Shown here: piece by piece, positions 53,147 through 56,984 of the stretch | Numbering within the stretch: the first letter of the stretch is position 1 | Layout of the letters: each line of letters starts with the position of its first letter | DNA from: Bradyrhizobium sp. C9 | GTDB lineage: Bacteria; Pseudomonadota; Alphaproteobacteria; Rhizobiales; Xanthobacteraceae | Assembly: GCF_002532045.1 (NCBI RefSeq) | Contig: NZ_NWTG01000007.1 | Coordinates: forward strand, 124,001-188,000 | Length of the DNA stretch: 64,000 nucleotides | Direction: 5' to 3' | The notes under the pieces: model-generated | What the model saw: the letters and a program-made list of their open reading frames with translations, nothing else | What the model was told of the DNA's origin: nothing | Database searches by the model: none | Program-made: the position numbers and the translations under genes

Positions 53147-53171
53147 CGCACTTTTCCGGATCATGCTCTAG
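53147..53171. repeat. partial GCGCATGATC-family repeat at the 3' end of an ORF
   Basis: CGCACTTTTCCGGATCATGC followed by TCTAG is one arm of the repeat seen whole at 36507. Its last bases supply the stop codon of the minus-strand gene that begins at 53554. Confidence 0.6.
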
Positions 53172-53554
53172 CCGGTCTCCGGCGGCGTGGTCTGGCGCTT
53201 GACGATCTGCTCGGCGAGCTCGATCAGGATCCGCTTGGTGTCGGGGTCCTTGACGTCGCGGAACACCCGCAGCATGCGCAACTCGAGCAGCGATTGCAGC
53301 GATTCCGACGCCTGGCCGCCGTGTGCCTGGGCTGTGGCGGCGGGCCGGCGATTGAGCATGTCGGCGGCGATCCCGAGCATCTCGGCGACGGTTGCAAGGC
53401 GGCCGGTCTCGATTTTCACGGTGCCGTCGACGCCGTTCTTCTGCAGGGAGGCGCCTGCGCACAGGATCTCGGCGAGATCTGCCTGCGACAGCCCGATTTC
53501 GCGCCAGCGCGCCTGCACCAGTTGATCGATCTGGTCGTCCTGCGATGTGCTCAT
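53168..53554 (-). CDS. hypothetical helix-turn-helix-like protein
   Basis: A 128-aa protein. The N-terminal half (QLVQARWREIGLSQADLAEILCAG, DGTVKIETGRLATVAEMLGIAADMLNRR) is like a diverged XRE helix-turn-helix, and the C-terminal part LLELRMLRVFRDVKDPDTKRILIELAEQIVKRQ is helical, as in small repressors. AGG lies seven bases before the ATG. Possibly a small regulator; DNA binding is not certain. Confidence 0.6.
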   Translation of the reverse strand: MSTSQDDQIDQLVQARWREIGLSQADLAEILCAGASLQKNGVDGTVKIETGRLATVAEMLGIAADMLNRRPAATAQAHGGQASESLQSLLELRMLRVFRDVKDPDTKRILIELAEQIVKRQTTPPETG

Positions 53555-53893: not shown

Positions 53894-54667
53894 TCACAGG
53901 TCGATGATCCCGAGCGCGATGCTCTTGGCCACCCCGTGCGTCTTGTTGGAGGCCTCGAGCTTGCGCAGCGCCTGCTTGATGAAGCCTTCGACGGTCTCCG
54001 GCGAAATGCCGAGGATCTGCGCGGTGTCGGCCACGGTCTTGCCGCGCGCTGCCCAGGCGATCACTTCCTTCTCCCGCCCCGTGAGCTTGATGGTCTCGGC
54101 GGCGTCGGCGGGCTTCAGGATGGTCGGCGCGTTGCGCTGGTCGCGGTTGACGATGTCCATCGCCCGCTGCACCCAGTAGATCATCAACAGATGCAGTTCA
54201 TGGCGATGGCAGATGAACAGCTTGTCGAAGTCGCGCGGCTGGTCTTCCCAGAAGAACACCGTCGAGCTCGAATGCACGGCGCCGAGCCGGTCGCGATAAT
54301 GGAAAGGCACCACGAAGCCGTCCTTGAAGCCGAACTCGCGGGCGGCATCCATCGTCTTGACCTCGGGCGCCCGCTTGTGGCCGCTGCGCTCCGGCAGCTT
54401 CAGGCCGCTCCAGCTGAACGGCGTGTTGGTGCGTCGCGACCGCGCCAGCGCCGGATCGGCATGGACGAACTCGTTCTGCACATACGCCCGCTTCCAGGCA
54501 TCGGGATAGGTGCCGACATGATAGGGCAGATCAAGGTCGGGCCGACCGGCATCGACAAAGGCAAAGCCCGAGAAGCCGTAGTTCTGGATGACACGGTGCA
54601 ATGACGAGCTGAGCTCGTCGATGGTGTCCGACGCCTCGATGGTTGAAATCGCGTCTACCAGGCCCAT
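53894..54667 (-). CDS. LuxR-type quorum-sensing regulator
   Basis: A 257-aa regulator. The autoinducer domain (1-175) has the conserved acyl-HSL contacts at nearly TraR positions: Trp58 and Tyr62 in YPDAWKRAYVQNEF, Asp71-Pro72 in VHADPAL, and GFKDGFVVPFHYRDRLGAV. The DNA-binding domain (from about 190) reads KLTGREKEVIAWAARGKTVADTAQILGISPETVEGFIKQALRKL. Divergent from luxI, separated by 79 bp with a perfect palindrome. It binds an acyl- or aryl-HSL made by the neighbour and controls the luxI operon. Name not assigned (BjaR/RpaR-like class). Confidence 0.9.
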   Translation of the reverse strand: MGLVDAISTIEASDTIDELSSSLHRVIQNYGFSGFAFVDAGRPDLDLPYHVGTYPDAWKRAYVQNEFVHADPALARSRRTNTPFSWSGLKLPERSGHKRAPEVKTMDAAREFGFKDGFVVPFHYRDRLGAVHSSSTVFFWEDQPRDFDKLFICHRHELHLLMIYWVQRAMDIVNRDQRNAPTILKPADAAETIKLTGREKEVIAWAARGKTVADTAQILGISPETVEGFIKQALRKLEASNKTHGVAKSIALGIIDL

Positions 54668-54675
54668 TGACTAAA

Positions 54676-54694
54676 ACCCCCGGTTTCCGGGGGT
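54676..54694. promoter_or_regulatory. lux-box-like palindrome
   Basis: ACCCCCGGTTTCCGGGGGT is a perfect 19-bp palindrome centred at 54685. A LuxR-type activator centred 42 bases upstream of a start would place transcription near 54727, 20 bases before luxI, with the GGAGG at 54734 in the leader. It also covers the luxR ribosome-binding region. Confidence 0.65.
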
Positions 54695-54746: not shown

Positions 54747-55403
54747 ATGCCGCATTCATTGGACGGCTATCATGCACTCATCACCAGGGAAGAGCTTGAT
54801 CCGGAGCATGTCGGGGCGATGTTGCGGCTACGCAAGCGGCTGTTCGTCGACCATTGCGGCTGGCTTCTGAGCACGACCGGCGACGTCGAACGCGATCAGT
54901 TCGACTGCTGGTACACCGAGCACTGCCTGTTGTTCTCGGGTGTCGATCTGGTCGGCGGCTTTCGGGCGATCCGCACCGATTATCCCTACCTGACCAAGTC
55001 GGTGTTCCCGCAGCTTGCGGTGCGCCGCTTTCCGAGCCGCCGCGACGCCTGGGAGATCAGCCGTTTCGGCGTGCTGCCTGGTGTCGCGAGGTCGCGGACG
55101 GCACGCGTCAACTACGCGCTGATGTTCCGCTTCGCCGAGCTGCGCGGGGCGGCCGCGCTCGTGGCGCTCGCCGACCTTTCCTACGAGCGTTTCCTCACCC
55201 GCATGGAAATCCGCACCCGCCGCTACGGCCCGCCGCAGGTGATCGGCAATGATCGCATGGGCCGCCCGCTGACGGCGCTCGCCGGAGAAATCCCGCTTGG
55301 TCTTTCCGACAATCCCGGCCTGACCAAATTCCTCGACCTCGGACGACAATTGGAGATTCACGATGCCTCACATGTTCTCGGACGTTCGAGCATTCCAGCG
55401 TGA
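54747..55403 (+). CDS. acyl-homoserine-lactone synthase (LuxI family)
   Basis: A 218-aa enzyme making an HSL signal from S-adenosylmethionine and an acyl donor. All LuxI invariants are present: Arg29 and Phe33 in RLRKRLFVDHCGW, Trp39, Asp50 and Asp53 in DQFDCW, Arg73 in GGFRAIRTD, Glu103 and Arg106 in WEISRFGV. The start has GGAGG eight bases upstream. The last 41 bases overlap the P450 gene. Whether the acyl donor is acyl-ACP, acyl-CoA or an aryl-CoA cannot be told from sequence; photosynthetic and soil Bradyrhizobium relatives include CoA-dependent types. Confidence 0.92.
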   Translation: MPHSLDGYHALITREELDPEHVGAMLRLRKRLFVDHCGWLLSTTGDVERDQFDCWYTEHCLLFSGVDLVGGFRAIRTDYPYLTKSVFPQLAVRRFPSRRDAWEISRFGVLPGVARSRTARVNYALMFRFAELRGAAALVALADLSYERFLTRMEIRTRRYGPPQVIGNDRMGRPLTALAGEIPLGLSDNPGLTKFLDLGRQLEIHDASHVLGRSSIPA

Positions 55404-56727
55404 CCCGCTGCGTCTGCTGCTGACGCGCGGCAACGAGGCCGAATCGGGGCTGGTGCCCCTGCGGCTCGGTCCCGCGCCCGTGTTTCTGGTGAACGATCCC
55501 GATCTGCTGCGCCCGATCCTCAAGGCGCCGGAGACCGACATCGGAAAGGGCAAGCTGATCAAGAAGCTGACGCCGGTGCTCGGCCGCAGCTCGCTGATGC
55601 TGAGCGGCGAGGAGCACAAGCGGCGGCGGACGGTGCTGCAGAAGCACATGGCCAAGGGCAGCGTCGAGAAATTCCTGCCGCATATGTGCGCCGAGATCCG
55701 CGCGGTCGGCGCCAGCCTGGCGCGGCTCGGCTCGTTCGATCCGCACCATGTCACCGCGATGCTGGCGTTGCGGACGATCTGCGTCGCGATCTTCGGCTCC
55801 CAGGTGATGTCGTCGGGTGACGAGGAAGCGCTGGTTCAGGCCGTCGGCGTGATCGAGGACGATCTCGCCGAGGAGATGTTCCGCGCCTTGCCGTTCGGTC
55901 CGGTGGCTTGGTACCGGCGCCGGCAGAACCGGGTCTGCGCCAAGCTTGCGATGTCGACGGTGGTGCAGCGTCTGCGCAGCAAGGCGGGCTCAAGCAGCGC
56001 GCTGCGGGATCTCGAGGCGCTCGGCCTCAGCGATCGCGATCTCGAGGACGAGATCCTGACACTGCTGCTGGCCGGCCATCACACCACGGGTTCGACGGCG
56101 GCGTGGATGTTCTACCAGATGGCCGCGGATCCCGCCCTGATGGACGACATTGCCGACGAGGCGGCGGAGTGCATCGGCGACGATGGCGAACTGCGGCTTG
56201 ACGCGGTGAAGCGCGCCAATCTGAGCGCGACGTTCGTCAAGGAGGTCTGCCGGCTCTATCCCAGCGCCTGGTGGTTCTCGCGCGAGGTGATGCGGCCGGT
56301 GACGATCGGCGGGCGCGAGCTCAAGGTCGGCACCTCGCTGTTGATCTGTCCCTGGCAATTGCAGCGCGATCCCAGGCATTTCCCCGACCCGGACCGCTTT
56401 CTGATGACGCGGCGCTACAACACCGACGCCTACATCCCGTTCGGCGCCGGCCCGCGCGCCTGCGCCGGGATGGGGGTTGCGATGCTCGAATTGCAATTGC
56501 TCGCGCTCGAGATCGCCGCGGCCTATCGCTTCACCGCTGTCAGCCCGAATCCGGCGCCGTGGCCGAAAGCCTCGGTGACGCTGATTCCGCCGCCGATGAC
56601 GATCGACATCGAAGTCCGCGAGATGCCATCGCGCATCCTGCATCTCGGCGAGGGAGCCGAGCGGCTGCCATACATTCCATCCGCCAGCGCGGCGTCCATC
56701 AGCTCATTACATTCGGTATCCCAATGA
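55363..56727 (+). CDS. cytochrome P450 in the luxI operon
   Basis: A 454-aa soluble P450. I-helix AGHHTT at residues 237-242, ExxR motif as KEVCRL at 293-298 (Glu294, Arg297), heme-binding FGAGPRACAGMG with Cys367, and the PERF-like DPDRF. The lack of an N-terminal anchor fits a bacterial cytosolic P450 needing a ferredoxin partner, which is not in the window. The overall form resembles fatty-acid hydroxylase-type P450s. It starts 41 bases inside luxI with GGAG seven bases ahead, and its stop overlaps the next start (ATGA). A role in oxidising the HSL, its acyl precursor or a quorum-controlled metabolite is inferred. Confidence 0.9.
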   Translation: MPHMFSDVRAFQRDPLRLLLTRGNEAESGLVPLRLGPAPVFLVNDPDLLRPILKAPETDIGKGKLIKKLTPVLGRSSLMLSGEEHKRRRTVLQKHMAKGSVEKFLPHMCAEIRAVGASLARLGSFDPHHVTAMLALRTICVAIFGSQVMSSGDEEALVQAVGVIEDDLAEEMFRALPFGPVAWYRRRQNRVCAKLAMSTVVQRLRSKAGSSSALRDLEALGLSDRDLEDEILTLLLAGHHTTGSTAAWMFYQMAADPALMDDIADEAAECIGDDGELRLDAVKRANLSATFVKEVCRLYPSAWWFSREVMRPVTIGGRELKVGTSLLICPWQLQRDPRHFPDPDRFLMTRRYNTDAYIPFGAGPRACAGMGVAMLELQLLALEIAAAYRFTAVSPNPAPWPKASVTLIPPPMTIDIEVREMPSRILHLGEGAERLPYIPSASAASISSLHSVSQ

Positions 56728-56984
56728 CAACACACATCACGACGGCCGGTATCGGGCAGAGGGCAATGGATCAAGTGCAAATGCGCAGCTTGCGCGACGT
56801 CATCGCGGTCTTGATCGAGCAGCGCAGCATCGTGACGGCGGCCGGCGCGACCTTCGCCGCACATCTGCTCGACCTCGCGATCATGCAGCTCAGGCTCAAC
56901 GTCAACGATATTTCGGCGGAGGAATTGTCCGGCCTGTCCGACTACGTCGGCGCGGAGTTCACCAGGGACAAGTCCTCGCATTGA
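56724..56984 (+). CDS. small unknown protein in the luxI-P450 operon, 86 aa
   Basis: An 86-aa ORF whose ATG overlaps the P450 stop (ATGA), a sign of translational coupling. It has no signal peptide. A helical core runs MRSLRDVIAVLIEQRSIVTAAGATFAAHLLDLAIMQLRLNVN followed by DISAEELSGLSDYVGAEFTRD. No family recognised. Position makes it a third member of the quorum unit, perhaps a partner of the P450. Confidence 0.65.
   Translation: MTTHITTAGIGQRAMDQVQMRSLRDVIAVLIEQRSIVTAAGATFAAHLLDLAIMQLRLNVNDISAEELSGLSDYVGAEFTRDKSSH

Follow-up and report, generated by a model that had tools for sequence, protein, structure and literature searches.

A cytochrome P450 gene joined to luxI by a conserved overlap points to a possible family of oxidised quorum signals in alphaproteobacteria

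What does a cytochrome P450 do inside a quorum-sensing operon? The question is raised by a 64,000-nucleotide (nt) stretch of the Bradyrhizobium sp. C9 genome (contig NZ_NWTG01000007.1, positions 124,001–188,000; hereafter the window), in which the gene for a LuxI-type N-acyl-homoserine lactone (AHL) synthase runs directly into a P450 gene. A first-pass annotation of the DNA sequence had noted a 41-base overlap of luxI with the P450 gene, and an overlap of the P450 stop with the start of an open reading frame (ORF) of 86 amino acids (aa). Direct reading of the window sequence agreed on both points, with the P450 in the +1 frame relative to luxI and the bases ATGA shared between the P450 and the small ORF. 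The LuxI, the P450 and a divergently encoded LuxR all exceeded their Pfam cut-offs (Table 1), while the 86-aa ORF gave no Pfam or NCBIfam match at E ≤ 0.01. The luxI of the window is the sole PF00765 match of its own genome at E ≤ 0.001. In many alphaproteobacteria a conserved overlap ties luxI to a P450 gene, often with a gene for a small regulator-like protein as well, and the signals made may form a family of oxidised AHLs.

The link between luxI and the P450 gene is real, old and specific. The first-pass annotation had proposed a search for the luxR/luxI/P450 order across Bradyrhizobium and held that confinement to this strain would speak against its idea. The P450 was present (E ≤ 1e-70) in 28 of 242 Bradyrhizobium genomes and the LuxI (E ≤ 4.3e-40) in those very 28, with the next-best LuxI anywhere at 5.5e-18, and the two genes were adjacent by coordinates in every carrier. 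Twenty-five of the 28 blocks are preceded by the same two genes, eamA and XRE, and ybaK and purA follow in 24 of these 25 syntenic loci, the 25th (L075) stopping at a contig end. The remaining three carriers (G018, G041 and G189) have luxR, luxI and P450 at 38–47% identity in different surroundings. Over the 25 syntenic loci, the median ratio of nonsynonymous to synonymous substitution rates (dN/dS; pairs with dS outside 0.05–1.2 dropped, and L065, with an incomplete P450, omitted for the P450 and small ORF) was 0.14 for LuxR, 0.19 for LuxI, 0.17 for the P450, 0.16 for the small ORF and 0.23 for the XRE gene. The cluster genes are under purifying selection and, with their recurrence across families, the arrangement exceeds chance. 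In L065 (G077:C87) the P450 frame stops at residue 404 with the rest in another frame, due to either a mutation or an assembly error. It should also be noted that a divergent luxR/luxI/P450 set lies on the conjugative 573-kb plasmid p1S06B of B. japonicum S06B (L246:7117-11389), where the annotated luxI and P450 overlap by 41 nt and an IS1380-like element lies right after the P450.

Outside the genus, the P450 profile was matched by 7 of the 198 genomes searched for the family and by 10 of the 297 for the order, own genome counted, and luxI lay directly upstream of 14 of the 15 new P450s of the order, the fifteenth P450 running off its contig. A reverse search of the 297 genomes with the LuxI profile returned nine LuxIs of at least 282 bits, all in the ten P450 genomes, with every other LuxI at 99.3 bits or less. 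One genome (G559) was counted among the ten although a contig end cuts its P450, and it has a 60.7-bit LuxI fragment on another contig. Among named genomes, luxI adjoins the P450 in 54 of 60 loci retrieved by P450 motifs. Carriers include Bradyrhizobium, Rhodopseudomonas rhenobacensis, Microvirga, Aureimonas, Methyloligella, Hyphomicrobium facile, Amorphus coralli, Aquabacter cavernae, Methylocystis rosea, Azospirillum sp. RU38E, Niveispirillum lacus and Nitrospirillum. The six loci without luxI comprise one at a contig end (L167), one of Phyllobacterium phragmitis (L163) and four remote P450s of 25–28% identity (L176–L179). Scanning the class gave one further P450 genome (2 of 337 including own) and scanning the phylum gave none (1 of 299, the own genome), a spread which is a lower bound as the threshold of E ≤ 1e-80 would miss copies of the Nitrospirillum type and scoring was confined to the few best candidates of each genome. 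A single-strain oddity or an annotation artefact is ruled out by this recurrence within Bradyrhizobium and beyond it.

The junction of the two genes was compared in 97 luxI/P450 pairs, in which the overlap was 41 nt in 67, 62 nt in 16 and 140 nt in 4, with other values or no overlap in the remaining 10. As these pairs include near-duplicate genomes, a diverged subset of 42 loci was chosen, of which 30 have the 41-nt overlap. A consensus of TGGAGAT occupies positions −12 to −6 of the P450 start in the 33 diverged loci with an overlap of 41, 62 or 140 nt (T−12 in 31, G−11 in 30, G−10 and A−9 in all 33, G−8 in 28, A−7 in 26 and T−6 in 30). Both the 41-nt overlap and the internal TGGAGAT persist at about 40% protein identity, the median pairwise identity over 29 loci being 41% for LuxI and 45% for the P450. 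This motif is read as a ribosome-binding site maintained within luxI, and translation of luxI and the P450 gene may be coupled. For the co-translation in fixed amounts suggested in the first-pass annotation, the overlap and the conserved Shine-Dalgarno-like site are in evidence, and the coupling itself is presumed. A frameshift fusion of luxI and P450 was rejected, with the P450 in the +1 frame in 42 of 42 pairs and preceded by its own conserved ribosome-site-like motif, and with no fusion seen.

In a phylogenetic tree of 67 LuxI sequences, one branch with 99/99 support parts the 44 chosen P450-linked LuxIs from 23 unlinked LuxIs of the Hyphomicrobiales. No P450 matching the profile was found at any of the 23 unlinked loci within up to 1.5 kb on each side of luxI (less than 320 nt after luxI in L195, L205 and L208). 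Pairwise distances over 29 chosen loci were correlated between LuxI and P450 (r = 0.79), LuxI and LuxR (0.79) and P450 and LuxR (0.73). These results bear on the possibility that the P450 acts on the AHL from LuxI to inactivate it or turn it over, so that an operon making both enzymes in fixed ratio would have its own damper or pulse generator. Oxidation of AHLs by a P450 in vitro is an established idea (Chowdhary et al., 2007, as cited in passages of PMC5479921) and a damper would suit fixed co-expression. However, a general quencher would be expected beside other LuxI types and would sometimes be lost, whereas this P450 tracks one LuxI clade, is missing from all 23 unlinked loci compared and has a LuxR diverging along with it and with LuxI. 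Because of this pairing with a single clade and the co-divergence, tailoring of the signal is favoured and inactivation is considered unlikely.

The LuxI itself carries the conserved residues of its family, as the first-pass annotation had claimed in stating that all LuxI invariants were present. An alignment of 22 P450-linked LuxIs showed E48, D50, D53, R73, E103 and R106 to be invariant and R29, W39 and F87 to be conserved in at least 90% of the rows, a residue set which we take to define the family. Against enzymes in the PDB, the LuxI profile scored 108 bits with 3p2f, 101 with LasI, 77 with 5w8a, 66 with 6wn0 and 49.5 with EsaI, the three entries presumably being TofI, BjaI and RpaI, respectively. 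The scores are a weak hint that this LuxI may use acyl-acyl carrier protein (acyl-ACP). They likewise hint weakly that an aryl signal, allowed for in the first-pass annotation beside an acyl one, is less likely, an argument which the 49.5 bits of EsaI weakens. BjaI of Bradyrhizobium, which makes isovaleryl-homoserine lactone (isovaleryl-HSL), and RpaI of Rhodopseudomonas, which makes p-coumaroyl-HSL, are of the LuxI family and from the same bacterial family. An orthologue of either was ruled out, as the PDB matches are distant (33 bits for BjaI and 40 for RpaI by LuxI sequence search). Passages of PMC10470506 describe both as users of acyl-coenzyme A (acyl-CoA).

Within the P450, residues E294, R297, G238-H-H-T241 and C367 are invariant over 22 aligned rows. 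Of these, E294/R297 are taken to be the ExxR motif, T241 the I-helix threonine and C367 the cysteine of the heme motif. An AlphaFold2 model (mean predicted local distance difference test score, pLDDT, of 84.0) has the P450 fold. It matched CYP175A1, CYP184A1 (oleic-acid complex), CYP170A1, CYP46A1, BM3 and CYP51 at Z 38–42, a range which spans the 50 P450 chains listed. Sequence searching gave similarly mixed P450 types, and the P450 profile had no PDB match at E ≤ 1e-50. A P450BM3 variant has been crystallised with N-decanoyl-HSL (9iss). As the mixed fold matches lie in one range of Z, the substrate class is not readable from the fold, and the resemblance to fatty-acid hydroxylases proposed in the first-pass annotation is only loosely supported, fatty-acid and other P450 types scoring alike. 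One role for such an enzyme could be the supply of a precursor, where the P450, in the manner of P450BioI, would act on a longer acyl-ACP or acyl-CoA, cleaving or functionalising it to yield an unusual acyl donor for LuxI. The position of the P450 gene directly after luxI and overlapping it would fit, and a precursor role has been proposed by its authors for the luxI-linked crotonase of Mesorhizobium (passages of PMC10470506), but neither the sequence matches nor the fold matches indicate an acyl-ACP-binding P450 and this role is rather improbable. The most likely activity of the P450 is oxidation of the acyl moiety, either in the signal or in its precursor.

The LuxR carries both an autoinducer-binding and a helix-turn-helix domain, and W58, Y62, D71, P72, W86 and G113 are invariant in nine aligned rows. 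These residues presumably represent the LuxR-family signature W57, Y61, D70, P71, W85 and G113 in TraR numbering. Inside the 79-nt gap between luxR and luxI lies a perfect dyad, ACCCCCGG-TTT-CCGGGGGT. A joint motif search of 25 lineages detected a related site of approximately CTCCCGG-TTT-CCGGGA, starting at −70 to −95 of luxI in 23 of the 25, with 13.0–15.0 bits in three runs against 10.4–11.1 bits (best of three) in 20 shuffled sets. The dyad is read as a candidate operator for the LuxR encoded beside it.

The third gene of the operon was found in 25 of 25 syntenic Bradyrhizobium clusters and its product has predicted helices at residues 5–39, 43–60 and 65–83 (mean pLDDT 80.3). In the luxI-linked loci L103–L116, inspected by eye, a candidate small ORF or a stretch resembling the small protein follows the P450 in 13 of 14, L113 being without one. 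Counted among the 13 are a P450 with an in-frame C-terminal extension resembling the small protein, a natural fusion (L110:7946-9439), and an ORF consisting of a short helical-looking start and a PAS_3 domain (L103:6356-6991). The profile of the Bradyrhizobium small protein was searched against 8,830 ORFs from chosen loci, with first-round figures used here, later rounds leaning on earlier ones and the matches listed being those outside the window and L060–L083. It detected a relative (E 3.7e-7) in the own genome, placed divergently to another PraR-type gene at a distance of 0.5–0.6 kb (L219:2396-3671, contig C11), and gave E 0.068 for a small ORF behind a luxI without P450 (L202).

A PraR-like gene of XRE type adjoins luxR. 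Its 128-aa product has 27% identity (blastp E 6e-9, residues 1–121) to the putative PraR orthologue of its own genome, which was named from its sequence and neighbours and whose locus supplied the ORFs for the comparison. The window copy had no Pfam match at E ≤ 1, and a 52%-identical copy in G012 matched HTH_3 with 23.6 bits (cut-off 23). All 25 syntenic clusters have the gene, as does 1 of the 3 Bradyrhizobium with a divergent cluster, compared with 2 of 30 cluster-free Bradyrhizobium genomes sampled from 214. In two genomes (G012 and G037), the slot that eamA-XRE and ybaK-purA enclose lacks luxR-luxI-P450 and holds a different gene set instead, which encodes a LysR, a GNAT protein, an isochorismatase-like protein, a small protein 51 and 56% identical to that of the operon and an MFS transporter (Pfam assignments from the G012 proteins). 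The slot in G041 has an XRE gene (35%), GNAT, isochorismatase-like protein and small ORF (52%), with the transporter in fragments, no LysR call and no ybaK. In G001, G006, G019 and G020, eamA adjoins ybaK with none of the slot genes between them. Since the XRE gene and the small protein frame two different gene sets, this supports them as a candidate regulator and antirepressor pair. The alternative set might make a different signal. It lies at L224:8732-13532 in G012, at L223:4154-9038 in G037 and in L225 in G041, and its GNAT protein is 405–438 aa long.

We consider it probable that these genes represent a four-gene quorum circuit based on a P450-oxidised AHL, autoactivation through LuxR and a small antirepressor of a PraR-type regulator. 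LuxI would produce an AHL, perhaps using acyl-ACP, and the co-made P450 would put oxygen into the acyl chain of the finished AHL or of the acyl precursor. The divergently encoded LuxR would then bind the oxidised signal and, by way of the dyad in front of luxI, switch the operon on. The small helical protein, co-produced with the signal enzymes, may antirepress a PraR-type regulator and so relay the quorum state, and in Bradyrhizobium the PraR paralogue encoded next door is its possible partner. The PraR-like gene, the operator motif and the possible identity of the small ORF go beyond the first-pass annotation.

A number of observations weigh against this circuit. Scores of the dyad at single loci were mostly non-significant (7 of 8 positions matching in 8 of 30 loci, and p ≤ 0.05 in 4 of 30), the joint motif search alone standing apart from the shuffled sets. 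Shared species history explains part of the distance correlation, which was computed among the cluster genes, and terpene, carotenoid, sterol and drug P450s are found among the folds closest to the P450. The operon has no redox-partner gene. In the Nitrospirillum loci, luxI and P450 do not overlap and no clear small ORF was noticed. In the first round, none of the small ORFs from P450 loci of distant lineages matched the Bradyrhizobium profile significantly, and of three PraR-type loci inspected in the own genome only one has a relative of the small protein (L219, with L217 and L218 having none). Finally, Phyllobacterium phragmitis has two tandem P450s of the family (L163:1299-9239) and no LuxI in the 9.2-kb locus, where tblastn with linked LuxIs gave a single match (E 0.006) inside the second P450 gene, and the tie of this P450 family to AHLs is therefore not a strict one. 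The sulfotransferase and methyltransferase near these two P450s would suit a quorum-controlled output enzyme oxidising something unrelated to the signal, which is nevertheless very unlikely here, as an enzyme of that kind would be expected neither to retain a single overlap and gene order down to about 40% protein identity nor to track one LuxI clade. A 265-aa protein without a Pfam match at E ≤ 0.1 is also encoded beside the Phyllobacterium P450s.

For the circuit with an oxidised AHL, the luxR-luxI-crotonase circuit of Mesorhizobium japonicum is the closest precedent and the nearest proven parallel. According to passages of PMC10470506, a crotonase-family gene beside luxI is required there for normal production of 2E,4E-C12:2-HSL. 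As in the present cluster, luxR and luxI are accompanied by a co-directional enzyme gene right after luxI, in more than one genus. It differs in that the linked enzyme belongs to the crotonase superfamily instead of being a P450, in an 8-bp gap in place of the 41-nt overlap, in the assignment of its LuxI (I1) to the acyl-CoA type and in that those passages mention no small protein. For the small protein, the parallels are CinS of Rhizobium (PMC4149787) and MmaP of Methylobacterium (PMC10790750), described in passages of these papers as small PraR-binding proteins produced from behind luxI. The CinR/CinI/CinS and MmaR/MmaI/MmaP systems share with this cluster a small co-directional gene behind luxI, co-transcribed there, and the involvement of a PraR-type regulator. 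However, their small gene directly follows luxI, whereas here it comes after luxI and the P450 with an ATGA overlap; they have no linked P450 (the term does not occur in PMC10790750); and their PraR is the conserved one, in contrast to the extra diverged paralogue beside luxR. For the chemistry, poly-hydroxylated AHLs oxidised along the chain are reported for the marine Rhodobacteraceae strain MOLA 401, with a P450 suggested by the authors; a P450 homologue lies somewhere in that genome and its link to luxI is unstated in the passages of PMC5479921. An open-access literature search for luxI or AHL with P450 (titles, abstracts and some passages) found no description of a luxI-linked P450, which does not prove absence; in passages of PMC4886583 "P450" is a primer name and in those of PMC5890197 the P450 is a regulated gene.

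It is quite possible, and is put forward tentatively, that obligate AHL oxidation by a dedicated co-translated P450, with the signal genes as an exchangeable cassette framed by a PraR-like protein and an antirepressor, represents an undescribed class of alphaproteobacterial quorum system, the alternative slot possibly encoding a second, non-AHL signal. The results point to a whole LuxI clade for whose product no description was found, and an oxidised signal could escape the usual AHL standards. The idea that some AHL circuits require a third enzyme is extended, and partners of PraR-type regulators can be sought by a genomic route. The cluster with and without its P450 makes a directly testable pair in harmless soil and root bacteria.

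Table 1. Positions of the quorum-sensing cluster and its elements in the window
Feature	Position	Strand	Basis
Candidate PraR paralogue, 128 aa, diverged, XRE/HipB type, adjoins luxR	53168..53554	−	27% identity to own genome's putative PraR
luxR-type receptor gene, divergent from luxI	53894..54667	−	Autoind_bind 82.5 bits (cut-off 23), GerE 46.6 bits (cut-off 23.5)
Candidate LuxR operator, lux-box-like dyad ACCCCCGG-TTT-CCGGGGGT	54676..54694	none	Joint motif search
luxI-type AHL synthase gene, 218 aa	54747..55403	+	Autoind_synth (PF00765) 50.1 bits (cut-off 24)
TGGAGAT, Shine-Dalgarno-like site for P450, inside luxI	55351..55357	+	Kept in diverged loci
luxI/P450 overlap, 41 nt	55363..55403	+	ORF coordinates
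Cytochrome P450 gene, 454 aa	55363..56727	+	p450 (PF00067) 176.8 bits (cut-off 22.8)
Small protein gene, 86 aa, all-helical (predicted), CinS/MmaP-like by position and size	56724..56984	+	

The surroundings of other LuxIs of the order were also noted. An ORF read by eye as crotonase-like follows luxI in L202, L206 and L207, with a small ORF sitting between the two in L202. At four unlinked loci (L191, L194, L199 and L204), a long ORF read by eye as a conjugation ATPase begins 5–16 nt after luxI.

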